Made by a program: the position numbers and the translations under genes. From Acetobacter malorum (GTDB lineage Bacteria; Pseudomonadota; Alphaproteobacteria; Acetobacterales; Acetobacteraceae): a stretch of 64,000 bases of DNA. The number at the start of each line of letters is the position of its first letter. Position 1 is the stretch's first letter. The stretch covers positions 1 to 64,000 of the forward strand of contig NZ_LHZC01000040.1 in assembly GCF_001580615.1 (NCBI RefSeq), written 5' to 3'. The notes under the pieces are model-generated. The model was given only the letters and a program-made list of their open reading frames with translations. It had not been told where the DNA came from and did not search any database. Shown here piece after piece: positions 10,844 to 54,703 of this stretch.

Positions 10844-10852
10844 CGTGTCGGG

Positions 10853-10885: not shown

Positions 10886-10898
10886 CCTCGAGGGTTCG

Positions 10899-10919
10899 AA
10901 AAGTCGGTTCCGACCTTTT
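10899..10919. terminator. Short palindrome between convergent gcd and gntR, possible bidirectional terminator
   Basis: AAAAGTCGG-TT-CCGACCTTTT is near-symmetrical, with A and T runs on either side, and it touches the stop codon of the GntR gene on the minus strand. The stem is short and the loop tight, so efficiency is uncertain. Confidence 0.4.
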
Positions 10920-11628
10920 ACGAGGTTGGGGCCGGCTTTTTTTTGCGGGGTGTGCGCGGTGCGGCAGAGGTGCGCCCTTGCGGGCGGGACCGGGCACTTA
11001 GCAAAATGGCGCTGCGCAGATGGGTATACATTTCTGCCCGCGCGACACCTGCATCTCTGCGGCGAATAGCATCCAGAATGCGCTGGTGGCCTGCGAGGGT
11101 TTCTTCCACCGAATAGTCCGGCAGGGACACCAGATTACCCACGCGGGAAAACCAGATCTGGTCGTAACTGATTTCAAGCTGACGGCGGAGGAGTTCGTTT
11201 TGCGCGCCCTGTGCAATCAGGACATGGAACTGGGTGTCCAGCCGTTCAAACTCATAAAACTGTTTGGCGTGTCCGGCTTCAGCCTGGTCATTCAGGCAGG
11301 CCTGAATGGTTTCAATCAGGGCTTCATCCGCGCGTTCGCAGCACAGCGCGACGGAGGCGGTTTCAATCGCTTCACGAAATTCGTAAATCTGCCGGATGCT
11401 GTCATGAGACGGGGAGGCGACAACATAAAACCGCCCCTTCCGGCCAATCAGCTTATCCTGATGCAGCCGTTGCAGGGCTTCCCGTACAGGCGTGCGGCTC
11501 ACGCCGTAGCGGCGGCCAATTTCCTCCTCCTGCAGGACGGTGCCGCCCTGCACGCGGCTGTCAATCATATCGCGGCGGAGGGCGGTATACAGCTCTTCAC
11601 CTGTCAGGGAGGGGCGACTGTCAGTCAT
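10918..11628 (-). CDS. GntR-family transcriptional regulator, FadR/FCD subfamily
   Basis: DNA-binding regulator of a nearby catabolic block. From the ATG at 11628 the protein is 236 residues. An N-terminal winged helix-turn-helix (residues 8-75) includes the signature EEEIGRRYGVSRTPVREALQ. It is followed by an all-helical FCD ligand domain with the metal-site type residues in YEFERLDTQFH and GHQRILDAI. The tail is Arg/Lys/Pro-rich. It is transcribed after the FAD oxidase gene (81-base gap), probably in one unit. FCD regulators usually bind palindromes with a GT-N-AC core and respond to small acids or amino acids. Matching palindromes occur at 13050, 13534 and 13588. An in-frame start at 11712 overlaps the oxidase and is less likely. 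Confidence 0.88.
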   Translation of the reverse strand: MTDSRPSLTGEELYTALRRDMIDSRVQGGTVLQEEEIGRRYGVSRTPVREALQRLHQDKLIGRKGRFYVVASPSHDSIRQIYEFREAIETASVALCCERADEALIETIQACLNDQAEAGHAKQFYEFERLDTQFHVLIAQGAQNELLRRQLEISYDQIWFSRVGNLVSLPDYSVEETLAGHQRILDAIRRRDAGVARAEMYTHLRSAILLSARSRPQGRTSAAPRTPRKKKPAPTS

Positions 11629-11708
11629 TGGTCCATCATAGCCGGTTCCGGGAGTGCGAGTATGAGGGCTTCTTATCTGAAAGTCATGCTGTGATGAAAT
11701 GACACACA

Positions 11709-13004
11709 TCACCGGCCCGCAGAGGACTCCCCGTTGCAGCCAAAACGCGCCAGCGTGAAGTGTTCACGCCCGAGTGTATCCTGCTCCCCGGCAATTAGGT
11801 TGGCCATGAGTTTGCCAGCGGCTGGCCCTACGCCAAACCCATGCGCGGAAAAGCCAGTCGCGACAAACAGGCCGGGATATCGGGCGACAGGGGAGAGAAT
11901 GGGCAGAGCGTCGGGCACCACATCAATAACGCCCGCCCACATGGCGGCAACGCGGGTTTTTTCAAAGACCGGCATATCTTCACGCAGGCGTTGCATGGTG
12001 CGGGCGAGTGTTTTGCGGTCCGGGGCCGGGTCACACGCGCGGTACTGCTCAAACGGGTTGAGGCGGTCTTTCCCGAACTGTCGTTCCTGTTTGAGTTCTT
12101 TCACAAAGGAAGAGCCGACACGTACGCTCAACAGTTTTTTCTGCTTTAGGAAATTGGGCATGAACTCCCGCATAAAGCGGAAGGAATCTGGCGTGACGTA
12201 GGTGATGGATGAATTGCGCTGGGCAACCGTATAGCCGCCGTCCATCCGTTTCCGCACGGAAAAGCGGGAGGATGCAATAATCGGGTCCGGCCCACCCTCT
12301 ACAGGCTCCGTGCGCAGAACGGAGGCAATCACTTTGAGCTGCGGCAGGACAATATCAACCGTTTTGCACAACCAGCGGGACCAGATGCCAGCCGCAACCA
12401 CAACGGCGGAGGCGCTGATGCGTCCGGTTTCTGTTTCAAACCCACAGGCGCGGCCGCCCTGAATATCAATGCTTTTGACTGCAGTATCCGGCAGGATAGT
12501 CACGCCTGCGGCTTCGGCCTTGCGGGCCAGAAAGCGCATGGCGAGATCAGGCTCGGCCCGACCATCGCCCGGGCTGTAAAGTGCGCCAGCCCATTGCCCG
12601 CGGCTTTGGGGGAGCAGGGTGTGTATTTCAGGCTGCCCCAGTTCACGCGCATCAAACCCATGCGTGCGTGCGGCGGCCAGCCAGCGTTCCAGCGTGTCCC
12701 ACTCTTCCTTATCCTGCGCGAGGGAGAGCAGGCCGCAGCGCGTATAGCCAAAGTCGCCTTCTTTTGCCCATTGTTGCCAGAGCGGACGGCTGGCAACAGC
12801 CAAAGGCAGTTCCTCCATGGCTTGGCTGATGGTGCGCACCCAGCCCCAGTTGCGGCTGGACTGCTCATAACCGGGGCGACCTTTGTCCAAAACGGCAACA
12901 GAGAGGCCTTTTTCGTGCAGAAACAGCGCAGTGCACAGGCCAATAATGCCACCACCAGCCAGAATAACATCATAATGGAGCGGTGCAGACGACGGCTTTG
13001 TCAT
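11709..13004 (-). CDS. FAD-dependent oxidoreductase of the DAO (D-amino acid/glycine oxidase) family
   Basis: Flavoenzyme that oxidises an amine or amino acid to an imino and then keto acid. It is 431 residues. The FAD dinucleotide motif GGGIIG and the acidic end of strand 2 (AVLDKG) lie in the first 42 residues. The NWGWVR stretch at about residues 52-57 and the C-terminal GLFVATGFSAHGFGVGPAAG are typical of the DAO fold. There is no signal peptide, so it is cytoplasmic or membrane-associated. It is the first gene of a two-gene unit with the GntR regulator, divergent from a TonB receptor-transporter-reductase operon. The substrate is unknown. Glycine, serine or another D-amino acid would fit the 2-ketoacid reductase across the divergent promoter (inference). 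Confidence 0.85.
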   Translation of the reverse strand: MTKPSSAPLHYDVILAGGGIIGLCTALFLHEKGLSVAVLDKGRPGYEQSSRNWGWVRTISQAMEELPLAVASRPLWQQWAKEGDFGYTRCGLLSLAQDKEEWDTLERWLAAARTHGFDARELGQPEIHTLLPQSRGQWAGALYSPGDGRAEPDLAMRFLARKAEAAGVTILPDTAVKSIDIQGGRACGFETETGRISASAVVVAAGIWSRWLCKTVDIVLPQLKVIASVLRTEPVEGGPDPIIASSRFSVRKRMDGGYTVAQRNSSITYVTPDSFRFMREFMPNFLKQKKLLSVRVGSSFVKELKQERQFGKDRLNPFEQYRACDPAPDRKTLARTMQRLREDMPVFEKTRVAAMWAGVIDVVPDALPILSPVARYPGLFVATGFSAHGFGVGPAAGKLMANLIAGEQDTLGREHFTLARFGCNGESSAGR

Positions 13005-25085: not shown

Positions 25086-26324
25086 TCAGAAAAGAGCAAG
25101 TTGCTGAGGCTGCGGCACAAAAAGCTGCCGGAGGTTCTGCTGTTCCGCCAGCCTGCCGGGGGACCAGCCGGTGGCGTAGAGGAAGGGTTTGATCTTGCGG
25201 ATGGAGACTTTCAGCTTTGCGAGGTCTTCCAGCCGCAACTGCCGGTGGCGGCGGGCAGCCACAATGGCCTGCACGGAGCGCACGCCTAAGCCCGGCACCC
25301 GGAGCAACATTTCCTTCGGCGCGCGGTTGAGGTCGATGGGGAACATGGCGCGGTTGGCCAGTGCCCAGGCGAGCTTAGGGTCAAGTTCAAGGTCCAGCAT
25401 CCCATCGGGGCGGCTTGCCGTGATTTCAGAAAACTGGAAGCCGTAGAAGCGGAAAAGCCAGTCAGCCTGATACAGCCGATGCTCACGCAACAGCGGCGGG
25501 GCTTTGACAGGCAGAATGGCCGAGGCATCCGGAATGGGGCTGAACGCCGAGTAGTACACGCGCCGTAATTTGTAGCCGGTGTAAAGCGAGGAACTGCTGG
25601 AGAGAATATCGCGGTCCGTTGCCTGATCGGCCCCGACAATCATCTGTGTGCTCTGGCCGCCGGGGGCAAAACGCGGGGCTTTGCGGCCCGTGAGCGTGCG
25701 GTCTTTTGCGGCGTCGATATGCGTGCGCATCTCGCCCATGGAGTGGCGGATTTCGCCCGCATGTTTTTGCGGGGCGTAGTCGGCCAGCCCGCGCTCGGTC
25801 GGCATTTCCACATTGATGGAGAGCCTGTCCGCATACAGCCCGGCTTCCGCCAGCAAAGCGGGGGAGGCGTTGGGAATGGTCTTGAGGTGGATATAGCCGC
25901 GGAACTTGTGCGTCTGGCGCAATTCCCGCGCCACGCGCACCATCTGGCTCATGGTGTCATCTGACGTGCGGATGATGCCGGAGGAGAGGAACAGCCCCTC
26001 GATATAGTTCCGGCGGTAGAATTCCAGCGTCAGCCAGATGACCTCATCAGGCGTAAACCGCGCGCGCGGCACGTTGGAGGAGGATCGGTTGATGCAATAC
26101 GCGCAGTCATAAATGCAGAAGTTGGTCAGCAGGATTTTCAGCAGGGAAATGCAGCGGCCATCCGGGGTGAAGGCATGGCAGATCCCGTTGCTGACGGACC
26201 CCAGCCCTTTGGTGGCCGCAGAATCCCGTTTGCCTGCGCCGCTGGAGGAGCACGAGGCATCATATTTGGCGGCATCGGAGAGCAGGGCCAGACGGTCAGA
26301 CAAGCTTTGCTTCATGGTGTTCAT
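25086..26324 (-). CDS. Putative DNA modification/repair radical SAM protein
   Basis: Radical S-adenosylmethionine enzyme of the family that pairs with TIGR03915 proteins. It has 412 residues from ATG 26324; a TTG at 26351 and an ATG at 26315 are alternatives. The [4Fe-4S] motif CIYDCAYC (C-x3-C-x2-C) is at about residues 70-77 of this model. A TIM-barrel core follows. The C-terminal region holds a helix-hairpin-helix, LRVPGLGVRSVQAIVAAR, a common DNA-binding element. The downstream partner starts 16 bases after its stop. Substrate and product are unknown; DNA or a nucleotide is inferred from the HhH motif and the partner. Confidence 0.88.
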   Translation of the reverse strand: MNTMKQSLSDRLALLSDAAKYDASCSSSGAGKRDSAATKGLGSVSNGICHAFTPDGRCISLLKILLTNFCIYDCAYCINRSSSNVPRARFTPDEVIWLTLEFYRRNYIEGLFLSSGIIRTSDDTMSQMVRVARELRQTHKFRGYIHLKTIPNASPALLAEAGLYADRLSINVEMPTERGLADYAPQKHAGEIRHSMGEMRTHIDAAKDRTLTGRKAPRFAPGGQSTQMIVGADQATDRDILSSSSSLYTGYKLRRVYYSAFSPIPDASAILPVKAPPLLREHRLYQADWLFRFYGFQFSEITASRPDGMLDLELDPKLAWALANRAMFPIDLNRAPKEMLLRVPGLGVRSVQAIVAARRHRQLRLEDLAKLKVSIRKIKPFLYATGWSPGRLAEQQNLRQLFVPQPQQLALF

Positions 26325-26578
26325 GTTATGTTCTTGTGTGGGGTATTGCAAGAGATCTCTTTAGCTGCACATAAAAAATGTAAGATATTTGTGGTTTGGG
26401 TTTCTCCAAATGACGTAAAGCACTCAGTATTTTCTGAGTATGAGAAATCGTATAGATAGAAATTAAATATATTTTTCAGCATAGTAAAATGAGAGGTGTA
26501 TTTTTTGTATTTTCTTATCAGTATGATAAATTCCCAATGATTGAAATGAATTTTGCGTCAAAAGAAAGTTGCTTAGTT

Positions 26579-28186
26579 ATGAAAAAATCCCAACATATTC
26601 TTTTTTTTCTTATGGTTATGGCAGCATCGCCTGCATGGGCAAAAGGAGAGGGTGAGCTTTTCCCTTCATACGTTAATTTGCAAAATTATGGTATTAAATT
26701 TGATGGTAGTGATAATGATAAAGCAACTCTTGATGCTATATTTTCTTCTATAAATTCAGGGAGTATTTTATCTATCCCATATGTAAGAAACGCTACTCTT
26801 CCATCTGGTTACTCTCCACAGGGAACAAGCGGGAAAACTGATTTGCTGATAAATTTCAATAATGATCTAAAAAATCAATCTGATTTCGATAATATAGATG
26901 GTTATCCAAAAATACAATTTGATAAAAATGGAGTTTTGTCATATAAAAAATCAGTTTCAAATAATGATAAAGCTATAGTTCCAAATGTGTGGTTGGAATA
27001 TTATAATAACCATACCTCTCCTCCAGGGCAAAGACCGGATCATAGAAATCTGGTGTTGATGGGCCATAGCGGTGAATCCTTAGGATATCCCCCCAATAAT
27101 CCACGGGCTTCAGGAGACACGCTTAATTTAGAAAATATTATGCGTTCTATGGGGCGGTCTGGATATGGTGGCTTTGATATTAATAGTTATAATTTTATGA
27201 ATAGGTATGGTACTAATTGGGTATGGAACTCCATTAATCAACTAAATGAATTGGGAAATACGCCCATTCATTCAACTGATAAAGCATTGAATGATGCGTC
27301 AGATACCCGTGAATGGGTGCAGGAGTGGGATCTATCCGGATTCGGACCTGAAGAAAAATGTTCTTATTACAATCCCTCATGCGGATATCGTACCGGGTTG
27401 TTGTTTTCGGCATGGTTGACTGGAGGTGGGGTAAATAGACAATGGCAGCCTGAACATGCCTATAAACTTGGAGAGGCAATTAGTGTTTCTGTAAATGGTA
27501 TAGACTATTCGTTTATCGCAACAAAAGAAGGGATATCTGGTAAGAAAAAGCCAGATTGGGATATAAATTTTGTTGTTGTTGGATGTGACCCGCGCTTTCC
27601 TAACAGCAACACTGCTCATGCGACACTTCTAGATTCTAAAGGAAAATTGTTGGAAAGTTGCGAGGATTATAAAAAAAAGCATGACAAGCCATTGTATGAT
27701 GGAGAAGTTGAGTGGTCTTTTAATTCTCTTATAGGACTTGAAATTAGCAATGTTATAAGGCTCAGTCAGACCGATAACCAGGATATTAAATACGGAACAT
27801 TTTTATCAAGTAATGCTATTTTTTATAATGCTATAATGGATTTTTCAGAAGCTAAATTTTATAAAAATTCAGAATATCAGACTGTCTTAAGAACAAAACC
27901 AGATACATATATCGATTTCACAGCGCATGCTAACCTGGAAACACAAAATTTACATATCCTTGGTTATGACTCTCATGAGAAATCGCTTTCTTATAAAATC
28001 AATAAACAATCTGTCTTAAAGGTAAAAGATGACGGAGGTATTGTTTTGAACAGTGCAACAAGAGAAGAGATAAAAAATATTAAAAATTCTGAAGATGGAG
28101 AAATTATTTTTGATAAAACAGATAAAATTCCTGTTATTTTTACAAAAGGAAAATGGTTAAAAATCGTAGTGAGTGGAGAATTATAA
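26579..28186 (+). CDS. Exported protein with pectate-lyase-like N-terminus and tail-fibre-like C-terminus, A+T-rich
   Basis: Function unknown. From ATG 26579 the product has 535 residues and starts with a signal peptide (MKKSQHILFFLMVMAASPAWA). Residues 30-65 (YVNLQNYGIKFDGSDNDKAT..) look like the opening of the pectate lyase superfamily beta-helix domain. The middle has a W-x-P...YKLGE..SVNGIDYSF element resembling carbohydrate-binding or tail proteins. The C-terminus (TREEIKNIKNSEDGEIIFD.. ending KGKWLKIVV) resembles the end of phage tail fibres and surface fibres. Codon use is strongly A+T-rich, unlike the flanking genes, which points to acquisition. The upstream ATG at 26489 would hide the signal peptide. 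A role in polysaccharide binding or cleavage at the cell surface is an inference. Confidence 0.6.
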   Translation: MKKSQHILFFLMVMAASPAWAKGEGELFPSYVNLQNYGIKFDGSDNDKATLDAIFSSINSGSILSIPYVRNATLPSGYSPQGTSGKTDLLINFNNDLKNQSDFDNIDGYPKIQFDKNGVLSYKKSVSNNDKAIVPNVWLEYYNNHTSPPGQRPDHRNLVLMGHSGESLGYPPNNPRASGDTLNLENIMRSMGRSGYGGFDINSYNFMNRYGTNWVWNSINQLNELGNTPIHSTDKALNDASDTREWVQEWDLSGFGPEEKCSYYNPSCGYRTGLLFSAWLTGGGVNRQWQPEHAYKLGEAISVSVNGIDYSFIATKEGISGKKKPDWDINFVVVGCDPRFPNSNTAHATLLDSKGKLLESCEDYKKKHDKPLYDGEVEWSFNSLIGLEISNVIRLSQTDNQDIKYGTFLSSNAIFYNAIMDFSEAKFYKNSEYQTVLRTKPDTYIDFTAHANLETQNLHILGYDSHEKSLSYKINKQSVLKVKDDGGIVLNSATREEIKNIKNSEDGEIIFDKTDKIPVIFTKGKWLKIVVSGEL

Positions 28187-28208
28187 ATTAATTCTATTAA
28201 AATATTAT

Positions 28209-28226
28209 CCGAAAGATTTCGGTTTT
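28209..28226 (+). terminator. Weak terminator after the exported A+T-rich gene
   Basis: CCGAAA-GA-TTTCGG followed by TTTT, 22 bases after the stop codon. The loop is very small, so the practical stem is five base pairs. Confidence 0.4.
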
Positions 28227-28324
28227 AGGTCCGCTGAAAGAAAATTATGATTTTTTTTGAAGAGGTAGATCCGGTTGTTCGGGCAGTTTTAGGGAGTGAA
28301 TAAGTTATATCCGATGGATGTCAT

Positions 28325-28945
28325 GCCATCATTCTGACGGCATTGCTGCGGGCCAGATGACGTTGGCACGGTATAATAAGTACGCGCTCATCGGGCGTGC
28401 GTCTACCCAGTGCTGTATGCGGACGCTGCCCGCTGTAATGGGCGATCCACTTCGCGAAGCTCGGACTGAGATCTGAACCGGTCTCAAAAGCATACAGGTA
28501 GACGCATCGTATTTCAGTGACCGTTAGAGACGCTCGATGAAAACGTTGCCCCGCCTGCGGCCTCCCATGCGGATGCAGATCTGCCGTAACTCCAATATTT
28601 CGGTGAAGTGAGGCATCGTGAACTGCGAGCTCTGGTTGGTATTGAAGATATCCGGTGAGCGCGTAGCGCATCGATGTAGAACTTGGCATCCATCCCGTTC
28701 GACAGGCGCCAGGCCAGAACTCTGCGCGTTGCCCAGTCCATGATAGCCACGATATTGAAGAAGTCTCACCTCGCGGGGATGTAAGCGATATTAGAACACC
28801 AGATTTGGTTGGGCTGGTCGATTGCTAGATCACCCAGCATATAAGGATATTTCCAATGTTCAGGATACGCACCGTGGTGCGCAGCTTCTGGTAGATTGCC
28901 CGTGGCACCATCTTGGCCATGAGTCTGCGGGTCCGTTTGTCGCGG
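28325..28945 (-). pseudogene. IS3-family transposase (OrfB integrase) remnant, frameshifted
   Basis: Fragments of an IS3-type OrfB appear in order but in different minus-strand frames. About 28770-28850 carries YPYML..LAIDQPNQIWCSNIAYIP. About 28640-28750 carries MAIMDWATRRVLAWRLSNGM and FYIDALR. About 28530-28640 carries IFNTNQSSQFT and GNVFIERL. About 28330-28520 carries CVYLYAFETGS and QRPHTALGRRTPDE. These are the conserved blocks around the DDE catalytic residues, and at least three frameshifts separate them. No start, OrfA or clear terminal inverted repeats were found. It is a dead element. Confidence 0.75.
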
Positions 28946-29153
28946 GTTTCGTGACACAGGCACCCAAGATGCCCCGTAATCGGCCATACAGAGGGGACGC
29001 GTAAAAATCCCCACCATACCCTCGATCAGCTACCATTTTCATGGGGCGGTCATCGTCTGATTCAAGCACTGTTTTGAAGCCAGTACCAGTTTGCCACGGA
29101 TCGCTTCTAGAGCCGCTTGCGATTTGAACTACTTGAACACCATTTTTCCGCAA
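28946..29153 (-). pseudogene. IS4/IS5-type transposase fragment
   Basis: The minus-strand frame contains DDRPMKMVADRGYGGDFYA, resembling the second catalytic Asp block (ADRGY) of DDE transposases of IS4/IS5 families. It is cut off by the IS3 remnant on one side and by A+T-rich sequence on the other. The nested layout suggests one element inserted into another, followed by decay. Confidence 0.5.
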
Positions 29154-29399
29154 TCTTTCAGATCGAATTATAACTTAATCGCTTGTCCAAAATCCTAGGC
29201 AAACTCTTGATGTTAGGCTAGAATATCAAAATGTAATATCCTAGAAAACTATTTTAACTAACCAGTAAACGCTATTTACTCTATTACATAATCTATTTGA
29301 ATTTCTGATATCTATAACTTCCCCATTTTTGTGATATCCTATATATAACAAAAGCGTCTAGAATCCTTTTTTACAATAAAAAGTGGGGTAGTTAGTATT

Positions 29400-30902
29400 A
29401 TGAATATATCTCCAAAGAATGATATGAAAAAAAAAATAGATCGATCAAGAATTATAGAATCTGTATGGCAGTTTGGCTGCTGTGGTGGTGAAGAATTTGC
29501 GAGAGAATTACATTTTAAGGAAGATGGAAGCATAAGAACAGATTCTCTTATAGGAGAAAAATATTGGAACATAGAAGAAGATAAAATTCATCTCAGTGAT
29601 GAAGATGGAAAAATTTTATCATTTACTCTTTCTGGTGATGAGGTTTCAGGTTTTATACTTTATGCCAATCATTGGGCTAATAAGTCAATGAGATTGTATT
29701 TGCTTGAAACACCAAAATTTATTTTTCAAAAATATGAGAATCTTAGGATCAATTATTTAAAAAAAGAACTAAAAATTAAATCTGTTAAAAAAAGTATTAA
29801 TCTGCAAGGAACACTATCACATTTACATTCGTGTCATTTATTAGAGGAAAAGGATCCATTTTTATGTCAGAAACCCCACAAAAGTTTTGCAGATCAATCT
29901 TTTGAGGATTTGGATAAATCATTATCAAAGGAAGGTTTGAGCAAGAATGGCATATATTATTCCAGTAACAAATTAAGAGTACATATGTGTACAATAAAAA
30001 ATGGTTATTTTTTCGTTGGGAATGGGCTTGATGGTGCAATATTTACAGAGGATTTCCATCCTGTAGAATACACAACCTTATTCAATAAACATCCAGGTCT
30101 TGGTGTCAATGAAAACACTCCTGTAGATATTGATGTTCTATCGGAATTAGATGAAGCATTTATTGGGTTTGATTTTTTTTGGGGGAATTATTTTCATTTT
30201 TTAAATTTTTCTCTTGCAAAATCATATATGGCAAAAATTTTTCTTGGAGATAATATTCCTATTGTTTTTCCGGACTGTGATAAACAAAATGAGCATTGGT
30301 CAGCATATAGTAATAAGGTCCGTGACCAAGCTTTTGAATTTAGTGGTTTGAACAAAAACTTAAGATTATTACCAAAAGGAGCTTACAAAGTCAAAAAACT
30401 ACATTTTTTAATGATTGATCCGTCTCATGCATGGGCTATAATGTTTTCAGATGGATTGACATCGCTTTACAATGCAATGGCGCGACATGCACGCCGTTCT
30501 GATAGTATTGGAAAAAAAGTCTACATTGCGAGAGGCAAAAATGTTAATGCCCGTACTTCTGGTATAGCCAATTCTGCTATAGCTGAAGCCGCCGGTTCAC
30601 ATAATTTTGTGCAGACTAGCTTTGAAAATATGGATTTGCAGCAACAAATAAGTATTTCAAAATATGCTGAGCAATTTATTTCACCTCATGGTGCTGGTTT
30701 GACAAATATATTATTTAATCCAGGCTGTTTGAAAGTTCTTGAAATCAATAAAAAGCTGGATGGGGTTGAGAACGGTTATAGACCCTGCTTTTACATGGCT
30801 TCCGCAGCACGGGGGCATGATTATTATATGTTGGATTCTGATACGCTAGATAAGTCTCCTTGGCAGGCAAATTCTGCCTTGCAAGCAATGAAAATGTTAT
30901 AA
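29400..30902 (+). CDS. GT61-type (DUF563) glycosyltransferase, A+T-rich
   Basis: Likely transfers a sugar in surface polysaccharide or glycan synthesis. It has 500 residues. The C-terminal 140 residues carry the GT61 pattern: KVYIARGKNVNAR, then NFVQTSFENMDLQQQISISK, then HGAGLTNILFNPG with the conserved His at residue 430. The N-terminal 110 residues (ESVWQFGCCGGEEFARELHF..) form a small beta-rich domain of unknown role, possibly substrate recognition. There are no membrane segments. Strong A+T bias and adjacent transposase remnants indicate acquisition. An ATG at 29424 is an alternative start. No other polysaccharide gene is nearby, so it acts as an orphan or belongs to a pathway elsewhere. 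Confidence 0.78.
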   Translation: MNISPKNDMKKKIDRSRIIESVWQFGCCGGEEFARELHFKEDGSIRTDSLIGEKYWNIEEDKIHLSDEDGKILSFTLSGDEVSGFILYANHWANKSMRLYLLETPKFIFQKYENLRINYLKKELKIKSVKKSINLQGTLSHLHSCHLLEEKDPFLCQKPHKSFADQSFEDLDKSLSKEGLSKNGIYYSSNKLRVHMCTIKNGYFFVGNGLDGAIFTEDFHPVEYTTLFNKHPGLGVNENTPVDIDVLSELDEAFIGFDFFWGNYFHFLNFSLAKSYMAKIFLGDNIPIVFPDCDKQNEHWSAYSNKVRDQAFEFSGLNKNLRLLPKGAYKVKKLHFLMIDPSHAWAIMFSDGLTSLYNAMARHARRSDSIGKKVYIARGKNVNARTSGIANSAIAEAAGSHNFVQTSFENMDLQQQISISKYAEQFISPHGAGLTNILFNPGCLKVLEINKKLDGVENGYRPCFYMASAARGHDYYMLDSDTLDKSPWQANSALQAMKML

Positions 30903-31174
30903 TATAAATTAAAATTCTATAATGTATCTGCGGTGTATAGGGTATTTATTTAATGTCCCAACACCGCTGATCATCTTCATAAAAACTAGAAATTTGATTA
31001 TTAATCATAAACAAATATTTGTATTTATTTTTATAGTAATAAAATTTTAGATATAAAATATGAGAAATTCACATATTCGTGAATGTCATTAATCAATGCA
31101 ACACACCAAAGGTCTGGGCGTTGTGAGCAGGCTTTCTTCGGTCAGCCACACAAAAAGAAAAAAGGACGTGGTCT

Positions 31175-44590: not shown

Positions 44591-44767
44591 ATGACTGCTA
44601 AAACAAACAAAAGCGTTGAAATTGCCGGCACCCGTTATGAAATGCTGGGCACGATGAATGATGGTGACTGCAAGGTGCGTCTGAAAAATACCAAAGGGGA
44701 AGTCGTGGAAATGACGTGTGACTCCTTTATCGACCAGCTGAATAACGGCACAGCCCGCTATCTGTAA
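44591..44767 (+). CDS. Small uncharacterised protein, divergent from the MerR/TipAS regulator
   Basis: 58 residues from ATG 44591, with AGGAAAG 4-10 bases upstream. The sequence (VEIAGTRYEMLGTMNDGDCK.., ending NNGTARYL) is compositionally normal for a small beta-rich cytoplasmic protein. It has one pair of Cys (DCKV and MTCDSF). No family recognised. Because it is divergent from a MerR regulator it is a possible target. Confidence 0.6.
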   Translation: MTAKTNKSVEIAGTRYEMLGTMNDGDCKVRLKNTKGEVVEMTCDSFIDQLNNGTARYL

Positions 44768-45169
44768 GGTCTCTGGTTTGTCTGCCCGGTTATCCTGAGC
44801 AGGCATTTTCAGACCCCTTCAGGTGCTGCAGGCCGGAGGGAATGGGGGACACGGTTTGGGCGCTGCCTAAGGCAGGCCCGGCCCTGTTGGCCCAGAGAGA
44901 GGGCTGCCCGGAAGCGGGAGCCAATATAGGATCATCTGGTCAGAAACCGCCTGCCAACGGGGTTTGTGCCAGAGAGGCCTGAAAACACAAACGTCCCCTG
45001 TGGTGATGGACCACAGGGGACGTTTGCGTCACGGAGAAAGGATATATCACGTGAATAACGCTCACTGGTATTTTATGTTGTTGATGTTTGTGATGGATTT
45101 GCGGTTCTCTTATAAAGAAATGTAAATATTGCGTTTTAAATAAGTAATTTCTATGCGGAGGTAGTGAAA
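44768..45169. other. Intergenic region with a strong hairpin, left border of the A+T-rich ATPase insert
   Basis: About 400 bases without a gene. Base composition changes abruptly near 45045: left of it G+C-rich, right of it A+T-rich. The hairpin at 44988-45026 is described separately. Confidence 0.6.
44988..45026. terminator. 16-bp perfect hairpin, probable terminator
   Basis: CAAACGTCCCCTGTGG (44988-45003) pairs perfectly with 45011-45026 around a 7-base loop. There is no U-tract on the plus strand; on the minus strand TGTTTTC follows. It may end transcription from either side or mark the border of an inserted segment. Confidence 0.55.
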
Positions 45170-46720
45170 ATGAAAGCGTTGCGTGAACTTAAAAAATGGT
45201 TCCCTACTGGAACAGCAGAAGGAGAGCGCGCTATTTTAGAAGAAGCATTTATATATATTGATGAATTTGATGAGGTCATTGAACCTCCTCGTGGTAGCCC
45301 CCATTTGTTAATAGGAAGAAAAGGAAGTGGGAAAACTGCAGTTATTGATTTTTCAGAAACTGTTATTGAAAGGCATGGTATACCCGTTATAAAATTATCT
45401 CCAACTGATATAGATACATCTATAATTACTGACGATTCATCTACGGGTGAAATGAATAAAATTTTTTTAGATGCGTTAATTTTGTCTATATGTAAGAAAT
45501 TATCCGAAAAATCTATTGGTTGGTTTGATTCTGATTTTTATACTATGTATTCCGCCGCTGTTGAAGCAGGGGTGAGATCTCCGGATATATGGGGGCGTGT
45601 AGGAAAATTTTTTTCATCTATAGCGAAGGGACCTACTAAAATTGATCTTAATAGTTCGTTTCCACACTTAACAAGCGCAACACGATCAGAAATAGGCGGA
45701 GCTGTTGAACGTGCACTTCAAGGTGAAACAGTTCATATTTTTATCGATGATACAGATCAAGTTTCAAATCCCGATAAACCCGGACACTTGAATAGAATCT
45801 GGTCTCTATTACTTGCTGTTCGATTGTTGGCAGAAAAAATACCACAAATAAAAGCAGTGATAAGTTTACGTACAGAAGTGTGGGAGCGCTTAAAGCGTGA
45901 TCAAGCGGGACAAAGAGATCAAACGGATCATTTTTCTTCACTCGTAGTGGAGATGCCTGGAGGGAATGAGCACGTAGAAGAAATTATTTTACGCCGTTTG
46001 CAACTGGCGGCTGGGCGTTTGGCAATCGCGGGGGATCCGTATAATCCATTTTTCGAAGGTAGTGCTGCACGGGCACCGGGTAGTAATGAAGCTCGATCAT
46101 GGAAACATCTGTTGTCGGTTCGTTCTAGAGGGAGACCGCGAGATACAATTCAGTTAATAAATGCTCTTGCTAAACGGGCAATTCAAGCAAAAGCGCCGAA
46201 AATTACAGAAAAACATTTCAGAGACGAAATGCCAGGATTTTCTAAAAAGATCGTAGAACAATTTGCAGTTGAGACTTCGGGTGAGTGCCCTACGGCTGTG
46301 GAAATACTTCGTACCTTTACGCGAAATGCTTTCAATGATTCCGGTTATTCCATGACATCGGAACATGCTTTTCAACACTGCTTAACCTTGCTTACGCGGT
46401 TTGGTATTACTTTATATGGGATACCGTTAAAGCATAACGATGTGGCAGCATTCCAAATTTGGAGTTTTCTTTATATTAGTGGAGTACTAAGCGCTCGTGC
46501 GTCAGATAGTAGAACAAAAAATGGCTTTAGACATCTTGATCCAATGCAAGATTTGACTCTTGTATCGAAATCTCGCTGGAATGATTTGCAAAAATTAATG
46601 TGGGAATTAAATACTGTATATAGAGATTATATGACAAATATTAGTGATGATATAGAAGCATCTATAGGTTTGGCTGTTAAAGTAAAAGCTCGAGAATCTA
46701 AGCGTATAAGAAAAAAATGA
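45170..46720 (+). CDS. Orphan P-loop ATPase (Sll1717-like), A+T-rich, candidate defence protein
   Basis: 516 residues from ATG 45170, which has GGAGG 8 bases upstream; the GTG at 45164 is too close to that site. Walker A is GRKGSGKT at residues 49-56 of this model. Walker B is VHIFIDDTDQV near residue 190. A downstream arginine-rich stretch (VRSRGRPRDTIQLINAL) fits a sensor 2 or lid. The C-terminal 200 residues are helical, with a winged-helix-like tail ending in a basic run. There are no membrane segments. It resembles the P-loop ATPase Sll1717 group, whose function is unknown to me. Composition is clearly A+T-rich compared with both neighbours, and strong hairpins bracket it, so it looks like a single-gene insertion. 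ATPases of this sort often sit in phage-defence islands (inference). Confidence 0.75.
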   Translation: MKALRELKKWFPTGTAEGERAILEEAFIYIDEFDEVIEPPRGSPHLLIGRKGSGKTAVIDFSETVIERHGIPVIKLSPTDIDTSIITDDSSTGEMNKIFLDALILSICKKLSEKSIGWFDSDFYTMYSAAVEAGVRSPDIWGRVGKFFSSIAKGPTKIDLNSSFPHLTSATRSEIGGAVERALQGETVHIFIDDTDQVSNPDKPGHLNRIWSLLLAVRLLAEKIPQIKAVISLRTEVWERLKRDQAGQRDQTDHFSSLVVEMPGGNEHVEEIILRRLQLAAGRLAIAGDPYNPFFEGSAARAPGSNEARSWKHLLSVRSRGRPRDTIQLINALAKRAIQAKAPKITEKHFRDEMPGFSKKIVEQFAVETSGECPTAVEILRTFTRNAFNDSGYSMTSEHAFQHCLTLLTRFGITLYGIPLKHNDVAAFQIWSFLYISGVLSARASDSRTKNGFRHLDPMQDLTLVSKSRWNDLQKLMWELNTVYRDYMTNISDDIEASIGLAVKVKARESKRIRKK

Positions 46721-46754
46721 ATTAAATTCTTGCTCACTTTATAATTTAATTGGA

Positions 46755-46796
46755 GAAATAGCGCTTTAAAATTCCAGCGCTATTTCTTTGTTTCTT
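46755..46796 (+). terminator. Rho-independent terminator of the orphan ATPase gene
   Basis: GAAATAGCGCT (46755-46765) pairs perfectly with AGCGCTATTTC (46776-46786), loop of 10, followed by TTTGTTTCTT. It lies 34 bases after the stop. Confidence 0.9.
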
Positions 46797-46829
46797 AAAA
46801 ATCGAGTCGGTTAAAAACTGAGTTTGGTG

Positions 46830-48116
46830 TTAATCCATCCGCACAGACGGGCGGACGAAGCGGTCCAGCCAGTCGGTCAGGCAGGCAATGGTGCCGCGCG
46901 GGACACCGTAGAGTTCAAACTGATGCTGGCGATACAGGGCAGTGTGGCCCAGTCGGGCGCTCAGCCCATGCAGCGCACCGCCGCCAAACGTTTTGCCATC
47001 CGCAAACGCGCCCCAGCCATTGTAATTGCCGAGGGCAACAATCGCGCCTTTGTTGTTGAACTTGAAAGGAGGCACCGGCGTCTGGTTCACAATCCATTGC
47101 GGCAGATATTTTGCCAGATGGTGCGCTTCCTGCCGCGCCACCTGCGCGGTGGGGGGCAGCGGGCTTTCCGCAATAAAGGAGCAGTCACCAACTGCAAAAA
47201 TCCGGTCATCCAGTGTGGTTTGCAGGTTGGGTTTGACCACCAGCTGTCCGCCACGGGAACATTCCAGACCATCCATTTCCCGCGTGACATCCGGGGCTTT
47301 TACGCCCGCCGCCCAGACGCGGAACTGAGCATCCACGCGGGAGCCGTCTTTAAGGATAAAGCCTTTCTCATCCACGCCGCTGACCATGGCACCGGTGCGG
47401 ACGGAAATCTTGAGGGCTTCAAGCTGCTGCCGGGCTTCCTCGGACACTTTTTCAGGGAAGGACGGCAGGATGCGCGGCCCGGCTTCCAGCAGGGTGATGC
47501 GCATTTCCGGTGTGGTGGGCGTAAAGTTGTAGAGGGAGCCGATATCCAGCGCCTTGTGCAGCTCTGCGGCCAACTGCACGCCAGTCGCCCCACCGCCCAC
47601 AATGGCGATATCCAGCGGTGTGCCACGCCCGTAAGCCTGCAGAACGGCATGGCGGAAGCGTTCATTAAAGTTGTTGGCTTCCACCACATTATCCAGAAAA
47701 ATGCAGTGGTCCTTCACGCCCGGCGTGCCAAAATCGTTGGCGCGGCTGCCAATGGCAAAAATCAGGGCGTCATAATCCACATGCCGTTCTTCCAGAATGA
47801 CTTCATCCTCATCCTGCTCTCTCAGCGGGGCGAGGGTCAGCCTGCGGGCGGCGCGGTCCAGATGGGAGATTTCCCCATAGCAGAAGCGGAAGCCATGGCC
47901 TGCGGCATGGGAGACAAAGGTAATGCGGTCATTCTCATTGCGCGCGGTGCCAGCGGCAAAGCAGTGGAGCATAGGCTTCCAGACATGGCTGAACCCTTTA
48001 TCCACCAGGGTGATATCCAGCTTGCCAGAGCGGCCCATGCTGTTTCCCAACCGTGTGGCGAGTGCCAGGCCGGCAATGCCGCCCCCTACAATAACCAACC
48101 GAAACCGATCACTCAT
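46830..48116 (-). CDS. ndh: Type II NADH:quinone oxidoreductase (NDH-2)
   Basis: Single-subunit, non-proton-pumping NADH dehydrogenase feeding electrons to ubiquinone at the inner face of the membrane. It has 428 residues from ATG 48116 (AAAGGAT upstream). Two dinucleotide-binding motifs, GGGIAG (FAD, residue 9 onward) and GGGATG (NADH, about residue 170), are present. The family motif AVGDCSF lies before the quinone-site segment QVARQEAHHLAKYL. C-terminal residues include amphipathic helices for membrane binding. It is the last of three co-directional genes after CobW and WD40 proteins, with a 108-base gap. NDH-2 is central to the short oxidative chain of acetic acid bacteria. Confidence 0.93.
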   Translation of the reverse strand: MSDRFRLVIVGGGIAGLALATRLGNSMGRSGKLDITLVDKGFSHVWKPMLHCFAAGTARNENDRITFVSHAAGHGFRFCYGEISHLDRAARRLTLAPLREQDEDEVILEERHVDYDALIFAIGSRANDFGTPGVKDHCIFLDNVVEANNFNERFRHAVLQAYGRGTPLDIAIVGGGATGVQLAAELHKALDIGSLYNFTPTTPEMRITLLEAGPRILPSFPEKVSEEARQQLEALKISVRTGAMVSGVDEKGFILKDGSRVDAQFRVWAAGVKAPDVTREMDGLECSRGGQLVVKPNLQTTLDDRIFAVGDCSFIAESPLPPTAQVARQEAHHLAKYLPQWIVNQTPVPPFKFNNKGAIVALGNYNGWGAFADGKTFGGGALHGLSARLGHTALYRQHQFELYGVPRGTIACLTDWLDRFVRPSVRMD

Positions 48117-48224
48117 AACGTCACTATCCTTTCGTGTTCCGCAAGTATCGGCGGCGGAACAGAACTGCGCAACACACTGCCTCTTGAGGTCACGCAATTG
48201 TCTCTCATGCAGGCGGGTGCCTGC

Positions 48225-49277
48225 TTAACCTGCGGAAAGGTCCACAAGGCCAATCAGCCCGTCTTCTGTGCCAAATCCCAGCAGGCATCCATCCGAACTG
48301 TAGGACAGCGCGCTGATGGCGCTCCCCCCGTTCAGGCAGACGGGCAGAACCCGTTGCGATTCCGGTTCGATCATAATGACAGACCCATCCGCAAATCCAG
48401 CCGCCAGAATTTCCTGCTCGGGGTTGTACGCCACGCGGGTGCAGAGCGCACCGCCCATTCCCGGCAGTTCCGCAGGCGGTTTGCCCATCGGGCCGCCCCC
48501 AAAAAACGGCCACAGCACCACAACATCCGCACCACTGGTCGCCAGCCATTTCCCCGTGCGGGAGAAGGACATGGACTTCACTTTGGTGGGGTAGCCGCTC
48601 ATGCGGATATTGTGCCCGTCAGACAGCCGCCAGCCGTGCAGGTCGTTATCCTGCATGGAGGTAATCAGCGCCTCGCCAGCCGGATGGATTGCAATGCCGG
48701 TATGGCTGCCCTTCCATTCAAGCGAGCGCACGCTCTCACTTTTAGGCTGCGTGTACCACACGGAGGCCCCGTTATAATGAGACGCCGCAATCCGCTTGCC
48801 CTTGGCGTCAAACACAATGCCGGTCACGGAGGAGGGGTGCTCCAGCGTTTTCAGCACGGTCTCACCCCGGCCATCGCGCAGTTCCACCTGCTTGCCGGAG
48901 GCGCTGGCGATATAGGCGGTCTTGGCGTCCACATGACTTACGACATGCTCTACCCAGCGACGGGTTTTGCCCAGTTCCTCAATTTCCCCGTGCATGTCCA
49001 GACGGCACAGGCGGCCATCGTCACCGCCGGTCAGAAAACCGCCGGGGTCTGTATCCGGGGCCAGAGCAAGGGCTGCGCCATCATGCACGGCGTAGGTGGC
49101 CCAGCTGGCAGGTTCCGCCAGATCAGACCGATGGGCGACAATCACGTCGCCTTCTGCCGTGGTGAAGGCAAAACGCATGTTATCGCGGGAGGCGGCACAG
49201 GCGGTGATATGGCCTTCAACCGTGCGGGATGCCCCACGCTTTTCAATCAGGCCGCGGAGTTCGGTAGGAGTGCTCAT
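48225..49277 (-). CDS. WD40-repeat beta-propeller protein
   Basis: 350 residues forming an apparent seven-bladed propeller with no enzyme motifs. Repeat-like segments include ITACAASRDNMRFAFTTAEG, VTGIVFDAKGKRIAASHYNG, VKSMSFSRTGKWLATSGADV and ISALSYSSDGCLLGFGTEDG. There is no signal peptide, so it is cytoplasmic. It overlaps the CobW gene by 4 bases (ATGA), which indicates translational coupling and probably a shared complex or pathway. Alphaproteobacteria often pair a WD40 protein with a CobW GTPase; the role is unknown. Confidence 0.85.
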   Translation of the reverse strand: MSTPTELRGLIEKRGASRTVEGHITACAASRDNMRFAFTTAEGDVIVAHRSDLAEPASWATYAVHDGAALALAPDTDPGGFLTGGDDGRLCRLDMHGEIEELGKTRRWVEHVVSHVDAKTAYIASASGKQVELRDGRGETVLKTLEHPSSVTGIVFDAKGKRIAASHYNGASVWYTQPKSESVRSLEWKGSHTGIAIHPAGEALITSMQDNDLHGWRLSDGHNIRMSGYPTKVKSMSFSRTGKWLATSGADVVVLWPFFGGGPMGKPPAELPGMGGALCTRVAYNPEQEILAAGFADGSVIMIEPESQRVLPVCLNGGSAISALSYSSDGCLLGFGTEDGLIGLVDLSAG

Positions 49278-50773: not shown

Positions 50774-52693
50774 ATGGCTAACTATAGTGGGACGACAGCG
50801 TCAGGCCTCATCTATTCTGCAACGTCTACCAATATCGGGATTCCTCCTCTTCTGGGGACAGTTGTCTATGACGTCACCATTAAAGGAAGTGATGGTTCGA
50901 CAGTCCAAACCCTTGATGGTCTGACGGCAGGTATCCAAATCGCAACGCTTAGCGTTGCGCCCACGGGCAATGTTGTTACCGGTAGCACTGGCATCAGCAC
51001 CCTGCTGAATCTGGTGGGGGCCACTTACGTCACTATGCCCGGCAGTACGGGGGGTATTACCATTGTTGCTAATGCTGCCAGCGGGAATACCTATTATATT
51101 GGTGGCGATACAAATATTAACATTCTTGTTAATGCTATTTCTGGAAACACGATCAATATTTACGGCGGCACGGCGCAGTTCTCCGGTAATCTCGTTGCAG
51201 GACTTTTGACTGGGTCGACCATTAATATTGGTTATGGCGGCACCTATTCTGGCTCTGTCGGGCTGATCAATATCCTCAGCGGGTCCACAGTGAACTTTCA
51301 GACTGGGGGTGGCACGCTGGTTCTGAACGCGGATAATCAGGTGCTCAGCCTGCTGGCCAGTAATGGTGTGCAGGGGGTAACGTTCAATAACTATAATCCC
51401 GTAAGCGATACGATTGAACTCCAGAATACTGTTGATATGATCAGCAGCTACAACATTAGCTCAAATGGATCCCAAAAAGTGGTGACCCTGTATGGGGGAA
51501 CCGATAACAAGACGGTTGTTGCAGAATATGCAGTCACCCCGGCCTCAGATGCTTCGTTGCCGGATGGCACCTATAATAGCATTGGCAGCCAGGACACATC
51601 GCTCAACCCGCTGCAAATTACCTATAATAACGGCAATACTTATATCGGTGCCTGTTTCCTTGCCGGCTCCATGATCCGCACTCCGGAAGGGGAGCGTGCT
51701 GTGGAGGATCTGAGCGTTGGTGAGACTGTCTGCGTTTTTGAAAACGGCCAGTTTATTGAACGCCAGATTGTATGGGCCGGAAAAACAACTGCTCATGTGC
51801 GGGTTGGTCTGCCGGATGACGAGGCCGGTTATCCCGTCCGCCTGCTGAAAGATTCCATCAGCGCCGGCGCGCCGGACCGTGACCTGCTGGTAACACCGGA
51901 ACATTGCCTGTATTTTGAAGGCGGTTTTATTCCGGCACGTATGCTGGTGAATGGCCACTCCATTGTGTTTGACCGCAGTGTGACCTCATATGACTACTAC
52001 CATATCGAGACGGCGCAGCATTCTGTGATTATGGCTAACAACGTGCTGACAGAAAGCTATCTGGATACCGGCAACCGCAGTAGCTTCCTGCCGCATGGAA
52101 CGGTATCGCGGATTAGTGCTGGTCAGGCGCGGAGTTGGGCGGAAGATGCCGCTGCGCCGCTCATGGTAGCACGGGAGCGTGTTGAGCCGATTTTCCACCA
52201 GATTCTGGCGCGCGCGGACGCTATGGGTGTGCCGGCAGTAACGGCTGCCCCGGCGCTGACGGAAGACCCGGACCTTTATCTTGTAACGGACGAAGGACGC
52301 ACGTTGCGGTGCATGCGGACAGTGCGCGGGAAAGCCCTGTTCATGGTGCCGGGGCAGGTGCAGGCGGTCAGGCTTGTCTCTCGCACCAGTCGCCCGTGTG
52401 ATGTGCAGGGGCCTTTTGTGGATGACCGCCGCGCCCTTGGTGTGTGTGTTGGGGAGATGGTGTTGCAGGTTGCAGGAGCAGGCTTACCTGTTACGGCGCA
52501 TCAAACCGAGGCCGATCTTTCTGGCTGGGCGGAAGCGGAAGAGGGTCCTGGTCGCTGGACCATGGGCGATGCGTATCTGCCCTTGCCGTCGCGCGCATCG
52601 GAAAGCTTTGGGATGTTGAGTGTCCAGATCCTGGGTGCTGGCCCTTATCTTGTACCGGATACCACGGAGGCAGACAGTGTTGTGAGCTTCTAA
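50774..52693 (+). CDS. Hint-domain exported protein with beta-solenoid-like repeats (copy 1)
   Basis: 639 residues, GGAGG 7 bases before the ATG. Residues 60-220 are Gly/Asn/Ser/Thr-rich with repeated xSGxTINI-type turns (ISGNTINIYGGTAQF, LTGSTINIGYGG, LSGSTVNFQTGGG), as in secreted beta-solenoids. The Hint (hedgehog/intein) domain starts at Cys294 in GACFLAGSMIRTPEGERAVE and continues through VTPEHCLYFEGG to HIETAQHSVIM. Intein-type block A cysteine and block B TPEH are intact, so self-cleavage is possible. The C-terminal 150 residues (VQAVRLVSRTSRPCDVQGPF..) are shared with copy 2. No classical signal peptide is seen, so type I-like export is one possibility. Such proteins are multi-copy in acetic acid bacteria; function unknown. 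Confidence 0.85.
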   Translation: MANYSGTTASGLIYSATSTNIGIPPLLGTVVYDVTIKGSDGSTVQTLDGLTAGIQIATLSVAPTGNVVTGSTGISTLLNLVGATYVTMPGSTGGITIVANAASGNTYYIGGDTNINILVNAISGNTINIYGGTAQFSGNLVAGLLTGSTINIGYGGTYSGSVGLINILSGSTVNFQTGGGTLVLNADNQVLSLLASNGVQGVTFNNYNPVSDTIELQNTVDMISSYNISSNGSQKVVTLYGGTDNKTVVAEYAVTPASDASLPDGTYNSIGSQDTSLNPLQITYNNGNTYIGACFLAGSMIRTPEGERAVEDLSVGETVCVFENGQFIERQIVWAGKTTAHVRVGLPDDEAGYPVRLLKDSISAGAPDRDLLVTPEHCLYFEGGFIPARMLVNGHSIVFDRSVTSYDYYHIETAQHSVIMANNVLTESYLDTGNRSSFLPHGTVSRISAGQARSWAEDAAAPLMVARERVEPIFHQILARADAMGVPAVTAAPALTEDPDLYLVTDEGRTLRCMRTVRGKALFMVPGQVQAVRLVSRTSRPCDVQGPFVDDRRALGVCVGEMVLQVAGAGLPVTAHQTEADLSGWAEAEEGPGRWTMGDAYLPLPSRASESFGMLSVQILGAGPYLVPDTTEADSVVSF

Positions 52694-52852: not shown

Positions 52853-54703
52853 ATGGCCGACTATGTAAATGACGCAGGCGTCGTCTACTCGCTCACTCCC
52901 AATAAAATTTTGGGAGTGCTTGCGTCCTATGCCGTTAAGATTACAGACCCTGATGGAGCGGTAACTAATCTGGGGAATGTCAACGCCGGCCATGTTCTCA
53001 CGCAGAATGGCGGCACGCTTTCCATCGCTTCCATTCTGGGGATTGGTGGGGGCCCGTTTGTTATTCCGCCGGGGATCACCGGAACAGTCACTACGCTTAT
53101 TTCCGCGCTGAGTGGTGCGACAATTTATGTGGGCGGCACGGCGACCATTAATACAGGTGTCTCCGCTCTCAGCGGGATGACTGTGAATGTGGATGGCGGT
53201 AAGGCTACGCTGGGTAGTAATGTCGTCGTCGGAGCACTGTCTGGGTCCACGATCAACATGACCAATGGCGGCACGTTCAGTAACGGTAGTGGGCTGATCG
53301 GGCTTTTGAACGGCTCTACCATCAATTTTGGTAAGGGCGGCGGCAAGTTTATCGCCAATGCTGGTGGAACGCTGCTGGATCTTTCCTCCACAACCATCAC
53401 GGGCTTTGATGCTGCCAGAGATTTTATCTCCTTTGAAAATCTTTCAGCTACGCCAGCCACTTATTCCATTGCAAACTCCCTCGGCTCTCAGTCCCTCACA
53501 GTTTACGACGCAAGCGGAGATGCCATTGCGTCTGTGAACGTTTCCGGGCAGCATTTTACGGCCGGTAACTATTCTGCCACCGGTGTTGGCCCGCTGACCG
53601 TGTCCAGCGATGGTGCCTCCCTGAGCATTGAAGCTGTGGGGTCAGTCTGCTTCCTGCCCGGCACTCTGCTGCGCACCCCTGAGGGCGAAGTTGCGGTTGA
53701 AGATGTGCAGATTGGCGATACCGTGCTGACGTTTGAGAACGGCAAGCCTGTTGCGCAGCCGGTTGTGTGGGTTGGCTCCCGTCGGGCAGACGTGCGCCCC
53801 GGTTTGCCGCTGGATGAGGCCGGCTGGCCGGTGCGTGTGCGTCAAAATGCTCTGGCAGACGGCGTGCCCAGCAAGGATCTGCTGATCACCCCGGAACATT
53901 GCCTGTATCTGGATGGTCAGTTTGTGCCTGCGCGTATGCTGGTGAATGGCGAGACCATTGCGTACGACCAGACAATCCGCGCCTACACGTACTACCATGT
54001 GGAAACAGCCCAGCATGCGGTGATTATGGCGGATGGGGCGCTGACGGAAAGCTATCTGGATACAGGTAATCGCCGGGCTTTCCAGCAGGCGGGCACTGTG
54101 GTGCGTATTCCCGGTCTGGCACGGTGCTGGGCGGACGATGCTGCGGCCCCGCTGATGACGGCGCGTGACGCTGTGGAGCCGCTGCATCAGCGCCTTGCTC
54201 AGCGCGCGGAAACGCTGCGGACGGCAGAAGCTGAGGCCCTTCGCCCTGTGGATGCTGCAACGCTGACGACAGAGCCGGACCTGCATCTGGTGACGGAAAG
54301 CGGTGCCATCATCAACAAGGCACGCAGCCATAACGGGCAGAGCATCTTTATCGTGCCGCCGCATGTGCAGGCTGTGCGTCTGGTCTCTCGCGCCAGCCGT
54401 CCGGTTGATACGATTGGCCCGTTTGTGGATGACCGGCGCATGCTGGGCGTTCTGGTTGGGCAGATGATGCTGCAGGAAGGCACGGGGAAAGCCCGGGACC
54501 TCGAACCCGTAACGGGTACGCTGGCAGCAACTGGCTGGCACGCGGCGGAAGCCGGGCAGGCAGGGCGCTGGACCAATGGCGATGCCGCGTTGTCTCTGGG
54601 TGCGCGGAAGCCCGGAGGCTTTGGGATGCTCATGGTTGAGGTGCTGGCCGGTGGGCCGTATCGCCTCGAGCAGGCTGCTGCGCAGGTTCGCGCAGTCTCC
54701 TGA
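52853..54703 (+). CDS. Hint-domain exported protein with beta-solenoid-like repeats (copy 2)
   Basis: 616 residues, paralogue of the preceding gene. AAGGAAA lies 9 bases before the ATG. The N-terminal repeat region again shows the xSGxTI pattern (LSGATIYVGGTATIN, LSGMTVNVDGG, LSGSTINMTNGG, LNGSTINFGKGGG). The Hint domain starts at Cys266 in GSVCFLPGTLLRTPEGEVAV, with ITPEHCLYLDGQFVPARML and HVETAQHAVIMADG. The C-terminal domain (VQAVRLVSRASRPVDTIGPF) closely matches copy 1. Divergence is greatest in the N-terminal repeats, while the Hint and C-terminal parts are conserved, as expected if they share a processing machinery but present different surfaces. Confidence 0.85.
   Translation: MADYVNDAGVVYSLTPNKILGVLASYAVKITDPDGAVTNLGNVNAGHVLTQNGGTLSIASILGIGGGPFVIPPGITGTVTTLISALSGATIYVGGTATINTGVSALSGMTVNVDGGKATLGSNVVVGALSGSTINMTNGGTFSNGSGLIGLLNGSTINFGKGGGKFIANAGGTLLDLSSTTITGFDAARDFISFENLSATPATYSIANSLGSQSLTVYDASGDAIASVNVSGQHFTAGNYSATGVGPLTVSSDGASLSIEAVGSVCFLPGTLLRTPEGEVAVEDVQIGDTVLTFENGKPVAQPVVWVGSRRADVRPGLPLDEAGWPVRVRQNALADGVPSKDLLITPEHCLYLDGQFVPARMLVNGETIAYDQTIRAYTYYHVETAQHAVIMADGALTESYLDTGNRRAFQQAGTVVRIPGLARCWADDAAAPLMTARDAVEPLHQRLAQRAETLRTAEAEALRPVDAATLTTEPDLHLVTESGAIINKARSHNGQSIFIVPPHVQAVRLVSRASRPVDTIGPFVDDRRMLGVLVGQMMLQEGTGKARDLEPVTGTLAATGWHAAEAGQAGRWTNGDAALSLGARKPGGFGMLMVEVLAGGPYRLEQAAAQVRAVS

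Follow-up and report, generated by a model that had tools for sequence, protein, structure and literature searches.

The DNA analysed here, referred to as the window, is a 64,000-nucleotide stretch of Acetobacter malorum (assembly GCF_001580615.1, contig NZ_LHZC01000040.1, positions 1-64,000, forward strand). Within it about 1.8 kb has been added beside a host hairpin, so that a single foreign gene lies between that hairpin and a convergent oxidoreductase gene. The features of the site are as follows.

44591-44767, + strand: host gene to the left of the site, encoding 58 amino acids; no Pfam match, DNA aligns in several relatives
44988-45026, no strand: host hairpin of 17 bp with a 5-nt loop at the left junction; outside the insert, probably a terminator
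45027-46829, no strand: insert of about 1.8 kb with no counterpart at the gene-less sites of related species; limits approximate
45170-46720, + strand: Sll1717-family P-loop ATPase gene, 516 amino acids from ATG, reading frame open from GTG 45164; assigned by NF047389 match and predicted fold
46754-46787, + strand: hairpin in the insert, stem 12 bp and loop 10 nt, with a T-rich run after it; probably terminates the ATPase gene
46830-48197, - strand: host gene for a pyridine nucleotide-disulphide oxidoreductase, to the right of the site and convergent; matches, together with the next gene, in 47 of 49 genomes

The open reading frame at 45164-46720 (+ strand) would encode 518 amino acids if started at GTG. 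The likely start is ATG 45170, preferred because the spacing of a Shine-Dalgarno-like GGAGG suits it better. Both ATPase motifs are intact, Walker A as GRKGSGKT and Walker B as HIFIDDTD, and the insert holds one such gene. The stretch 45027-46833 has a G+C content of 0.380; the 5-kb flanks have 0.538 and 0.557, and the window as a whole 0.562. The initial annotation, which had described a lone ATPase with clean Walker motifs in DNA of sharply changed composition, is borne out on both points. A promoter scan gave two sigma-70 sites against 5.1 expected and a consensus terminator scan two sites against 2.3 expected; the window holds no tRNA. A 24-residue GTG reading frame is possible at 45051-45122, between the junction and the ATPase gene and preceded by a purine-rich stretch; it was dropped since, by reading, it has no counterpart upstream of the homologues in L100 or L101.

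Each hairpin is real and one base pair longer than first described (17 rather than 16 bp on the left, 12 rather than 11 bp on the right). The left hairpin is the longest perfect one in the window; of five mononucleotide shuffles of the window, one gave a single hairpin of at least 11 bp and the others none. Neither is listed by the consensus terminator scan, which allows loops of 3-8 nt and requires a T run, the right-hand hairpin being missed because its 10-nt loop exceeds that limit. Their assignment as probable terminators is an interpretive reading. The initial annotation had the two bracketing the module, and this stands for the right-hand hairpin, which is in the insert. The left one is host sequence, because homology to gene-less loci of related species (L003, L004 and L006) passes through it, stops at 45024-45026 and restarts at 46832-46834. 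It lies in host DNA between two convergent genes, probably as the terminator of both, and its presence at gene-less sites rules out a module with both hairpins as its ends.

Recognisably the same left hairpin, with the T-A pair of the window swapped for C-G, occurs in L003, L004, L006 and L007. The hairpins in L005 and L008 share its AACGCC core and the stem-loops in L009-L012 differ in sequence. Eleven gene-less loci were scanned, L013 giving no placeable site; in the 10 of these 11 with a placeable gene end the stem-loop lies 2-81 nt from the end of the right-hand gene, a distance to be read knowing that the script returns the best stem-loop in 120 nt regardless of quality and that only sequence likeness counts.

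By protein search the ATPase has a match in one of 49 same-genus genomes, its own, and no relative in the other 48. The right-hand DNA (46830-49277) matches in 47 of the 49, own genome included; the match is near full length in 20 others and in separate pieces in more distant genomes. From its sequence the oxidoreductase may be NDH-2-like. The gene is therefore not core and syntenic throughout the genus, the circumstance named at the outset as contrary to a mobile gene. A comparison of the site in relatives, which had been proposed for related strains and was made here with L003, L004 and L006 of related species, agrees with the idea of a portable one-gene cargo, given the empty sites, the absence from all 48 congeners, and a homologue carried as an integron cassette (see below).

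With respect to the means of entry, no exact direct repeats of at least 6 bp and no inverted repeats longer than 6 bp occur within 40-60 nt of the insert ends, where only two 6-bp inverted matches were found. By reading, no transposase, tniQ or target selector was recognised among the open reading frames beside the gene. An insertion sequence or transposon was rejected on the lack of a recognised transposase beside the gene and of exact terminal repeats near the ends, an integron cassette in the window on the lack of an attC-like site by our custom criteria, and a tRNA-site island on the lack of a tRNA in the window. Entry by recombination between the flanks is a possibility.

Two other regions of the window are recorded here. 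A second A+T-rich island at 26300-31000, with 1-kb windows at G+C 0.31-0.47, holds a 565-residue open reading frame without a Pfam match, a glycosyltransferase-61 protein at 29400-30902 and transposase remnants, comprising an integrase-core match at 28324-28689 and more, by reading, to 29.15 kb; a comparison with plasmids gave no near match. At 50774-52693 and 52853-54703 two paralogous genes lie side by side, both encoding a Hint_2 domain.

On the NCBIfam model NF047389 (ATPase_Sll1717) the window protein scores 154.2 bits over residues 16-473 of 518, where the cut-off is 75; this confirms the resemblance to the Sll1717 group that had been suspected. It scores 33.2 bits against NF053860 (DS41_1_antiphage), below the cut-off of 370 and over model positions 7-110 of 448 only. 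A Pfam scan gave five weak AAA matches and none over cut-off, and neither PADLOC-DB 2023 nor a PDB sequence search gave a match. Of the clade, 13 members were scanned; every one matches NF047389 and, weakly, DS41_1_antiphage too (best 5.4e-13).

Among 299 genomes sampled from the same taxonomic family, 14 pass the Sll1717 cut-off, own genome included, and one of these (G142) passes the DS41 cut-off also, with 404.5 bits (cut-off 370) in addition to 136.6 bits for Sll1717. The same holds for a protein encoded on an E. coli IncF plasmid, with 414.7 bits for DS41 and 96.4 bits for Sll1717. Because they pass both cut-offs, these two DS41 proteins fall inside the Sll1717 family as the NCBI models draw it. 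The DS41_1_antiphage model is tied by name to system DS-41 of the DefensePredictor study, which reports that 42 systems protected E. coli MG1655, with DS-41 among the validated ones, and that DS-41 is one of three systems with homologues in Halobacteria (PMC13092281). A literature search combining DS-41 with 'anti-phage' gave no other paper, a full-text search for 'Sll1717' gave no paper, and a search for a phage assay of the window clade found none. Defence within the Sll1717 family is thus not without precedent. The initial annotation, which held that such an activity would be new, was right only in part, because two Sll1717-family proteins pass the DS41 cut-off and DS-41 is among the validated systems; in the window clade itself the activity is a prediction.

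In a tree of 26 rows the window clade forms its own well-supported group (100/100), and the clade and the DS41 proteins sit on separate long branches. An hhalign comparison of the clade with the G142 protein covers 83 columns (probability 75, E 2.5e-5). Inside the DS41-type gene of G142, a DNA search of 14 other genomes of its genus found only G142 itself, save one 39-bp match; the flank on the side of a gene read from sequence as efp matches in all 15 genomes of that genus and the other flank is mostly without match. By this DNA search, with one flank mostly unmatched, the gene seems variable in its genus. A DNA search of E. coli genomes for the DS41-type plasmid gene gave no match. As a separate observation, Sll1717-family genes in L078, L080 and L084 (genomes G188, G283 and G100) have G+C contents of 34-42% against 63-73% in their flanks and look broken: one has an internal stop, one is in two adjacent pieces and one is a fragment. 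This suggests rapid gain and loss.

Two PHROG families, 13260 (2.6e-12) and 22717 (5.2e-7), viral families with no function assigned, match the window protein. Viruses therefore encode distant relatives as well, and a role on the virus side is possible. A tblastn search of 50,697 phage records with the window protein gave no match, nor did family pattern scans of IMG/VR viral contigs or a comparison of the G142 protein with the phage records. Carriage by phage was rejected on the tblastn and pattern results, although the significant PHROG matches stand against that rejection.

The window clade is rare. A search with the single protein found only its own genome among 385 of its class and 9 of 398 genomes of its phylum, own included. 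In the contig collection the same kind of search gave no relative and an alignment profile scan then gave 17, the nearest from Azospirillum (54%), Komagataeibacter intermedius (50%) and Caulobacter (44%). A protein on a Roseobacter plasmid has 44%. Five of the 17 were omitted from the alignment (A2), the structure models and the tree, namely L108 (in two frames), L109 (ends early) and L113, L114 and L116 (partial), and were retained in the G+C count. The 12 full-length homologues come from varied bacteria. In L108 the homologue of Pseudomonas fuscovaginae, at 9998-11535, is split over two frames, which may reflect gene decay or wrong assembly.

Low G+C content is general among relatives. In 29 of 32, from all branches, the gene lies more than 5 points under its flanks, and in 13 of these by at least 20 points, figures that stand without a control gene set; the exceptions are G231, L102 and L109. 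Any acquired gene could show such low G+C and patchiness. The surroundings vary, the homologue lying between dnaN and mfd in Caulobacter, between a MurU-like gene and transketolase in Leptothrix, between a peptidase-like gene and cytosine deaminase in a Burkholderiales MAG, and behind the ribonucleotide reductase beta gene in Solimonas. Elsewhere the neighbours are GmrSD and HipA (L103), an Eco57I-type restriction-modification enzyme (L105), a RelE-type toxin gene (L107), and BrnTA with recombinases (L062). These readings come from a crude custom open reading frame caller, with chosen neighbours checked by Pfam or NCBIfam in L100-L107, L109, L111, L112 and L115, and in the loci so read no constant neighbour gene was seen. 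When the 143 proteins encoded up to 6 kb from the 17 loci were scanned with PADLOC, 104 families matched at E <= 1e-10, a count with no control set; the 25 of these that were listed include type IIG and type IV restriction enzymes and many generic families such as UvrD and methyltransferase.

One homologue is an integron cassette. Its locus, L106, belongs to an uncultured Comamonas and carries an integron integrase (TIGR02249, 474 bits), after which come four attC-like sites, all on the same strand: two immediately around the ATPase gene and two further downstream. The attC-like criteria are custom; applied to 20 shuffled versions of L106 (+ strand), they gave 0-2 sites. Matches occur also in L100 (some 250 nt ahead of the gene), L114 (at the gene edge), L102, L105 and L115, whereas four same-strand sites with an integrase are found in L106 only. 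The region at 7642-12614 of L106 holds the integrase and apparently at least three cassettes, two of which follow the ATPase (about 11617-12608).

The AlphaFold2 model, built from 13 sequences, has a mean pLDDT of 80.7 and a pTM of 0.78 and is weak at residues 110-180 and beyond 500. Its best structural matches include Cdc6 (Z 14.9, 3.8 Å over 249 residues), TnsC (Z 14.3, 4.2 Å, 260 residues), SSO1545 (Z 14.0, 5.2 Å, 329 residues), ORC2 (Z 13.5, 5.1 Å, 349 residues), the NRC4 resistosome (Z 13.0, 5.4 Å, 336 residues, over residues 15-503) and CED-4 (Z 12.6, 5.5 Å, 313 residues); many of these ranks are near-tied and a common fold does not reveal function. MuB and TnsC chains score high on the core, and Foldseek matches include BrxC and RdrA, which we take to be defence ATPases. 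The structure prediction suggested earlier for the C-terminal domain was carried out: the last 165 residues folded alone (pLDDT 81.5) resemble a winged helix, for which plant-receptor NB-ARC domains are the closest match (Z 8.3, 3.5-3.6 Å, 107-108 residues), and Foldseek with this part alone gave nothing at E <= 0.001. We infer from these models an AAA+ core of the ORC/Cdc6-STAND type with a C-terminal winged helix. The STAND NTPase class is taken here to include Avs, bNACHT, plant NB-ARC receptors, CED-4 and archaeal SSO1545. No effector domain was recognised in the window protein, with residues 110-180 too poorly predicted to exclude one.

The 13 full-length members share an invariant Walker A core, DDTDQ, HLNR-W, QRDQ-DH, RPRD and, near the C-terminus, W-E. 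At least eight of the last 20 residues are lysine or arginine in seven of 14 clade members, these being the window protein and its six nearest relatives; the other seven have 3-7, and the two DS41 proteins four and two.

Several explanations may be considered for what this gene does. We favour a portable antiphage ATPase that acts by ATP-driven assembly on nucleic acid, with a probability of roughly 0.6. Kinship with DS-41, patchiness, low G+C and the neighbours lead us to regard an antiphage function of any kind as probable; the specific nucleic-acid mechanism is put forward tentatively and could well be wrong. Oligomerisation is suggested by the fold class and contact with nucleic acid by the winged helix and basic tail. 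The ATPase would be idle with ADP bound, and a phage product or phage DNA intermediate would switch it to ATP, whereupon it would assemble into an oligomer. The winged helix and basic C-terminal tail would hold this oligomer on nucleic acid, where it would either block phage DNA metabolism directly or recruit a host enzyme. One protein would suffice and the gene could travel alone.

The protein could instead be a STAND/NLR-type sensor that detects a phage protein, forms an oligomer and switches on a host effector whose gene lies elsewhere, in a split two-part system. Alignment over the whole length with NB-ARC resistosomes and CED-4 is what such a sensor would show, as is a winged helix closest to NB-ARC; moreover STAND proteins are tripartite, the NTPase being the central part (PMC12169576), and effector and sensor parts are unrecognised here. 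Yet no constant neighbour was seen with the crude open reading frame calls, which means that any dedicated partner must be encoded at a distance, the ORC and TnsC folds score equally well, and the nearest relatives carry the basic tail. We consider this unlikely, although it is the strongest of the alternatives.

Explanations outside defence are less probable still. That this is an ATPase of metabolism or stress response which arrived by chance, is neutral to its host and takes no part in conflict, is improbable: patchiness alone is no proof of defence and the function of the clade is only predicted, but the ATPase and C-terminal motifs are conserved in 13 full-length members from several bacterial groups, implying a selected function, and repeated solitary acquisition with low G+C resembles the behaviour of defence genes. 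More improbable again is an AAA+ protein of the TnsC/MuB or Orc kind, associated with a mobile element or virus, left by an element since lost and serving target choice or replication. The high scores of TnsC and MuB chains on the same core, the integron cassette and plasmid carriers, and the two PHROG families would fit such an origin; against it, no transposase, tniQ or terminal repeat is recognised at the site, the reading frame is intact with 12 full-length homologues in varied bacteria, and the DS41 branch of the family is reported as defensive.

A wider proposal is possible, to which we give somewhat less than even odds. The whole Sll1717 family may form a large group of antiphage ATPases, each encoded by one gene and apparently lacking an effector, with the architecture of the ATPase core of NLR immune receptors. 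They would spread as bare single genes, some of them in integron cassettes, and settle among housekeeping genes and outside defence islands. The window clade would be one part of it, marked by invariant motifs of its own: GT-E close to the N-terminus, QRDQ-DH, RPRD, and W-E close to the C-terminus. A link is now drawn between a family without a stated function and a validated defence system, and the window clade is offered for testing. A puzzle is raised in that a single ATPase resembling the NLR core would stop phage with no visible effector, and the empty sites and integron copy show genes moving singly, which island-based searches would miss.

The NF047389 model names no function, and within that family the window clade is a separate, supported group. 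ORC/Cdc6 and TnsC give the top Z scores for the predicted core (14.9 and 14.3), but the window gene is solitary, bacterial and without recognised replication or transposition partner genes. A review describes integron cassettes that act against phages (PMC12409362); the clade homologue in L106 lies in an integron cassette, whereas the window copy has no attC-like site. The window protein differs from STAND NTPases in having no recognised effector or sensor domain, the likeness being one of predicted fold only; in that fold the AAA+ core and winged helix align near the whole length (Z 12.6-14.0). From DS-41 it differs in score (33 against 370 bits, the match confined to model positions 7-110), and neither DS41 protein contains the DD-D or the RPR pattern in the form written for the window clade. 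It shares with DS-41 the N-terminal Walker A region, which matches the DS41_1_antiphage model, and the DS41-type gene of G142 is A+T-rich, as is the window gene (G+C 0.424 against 0.719).
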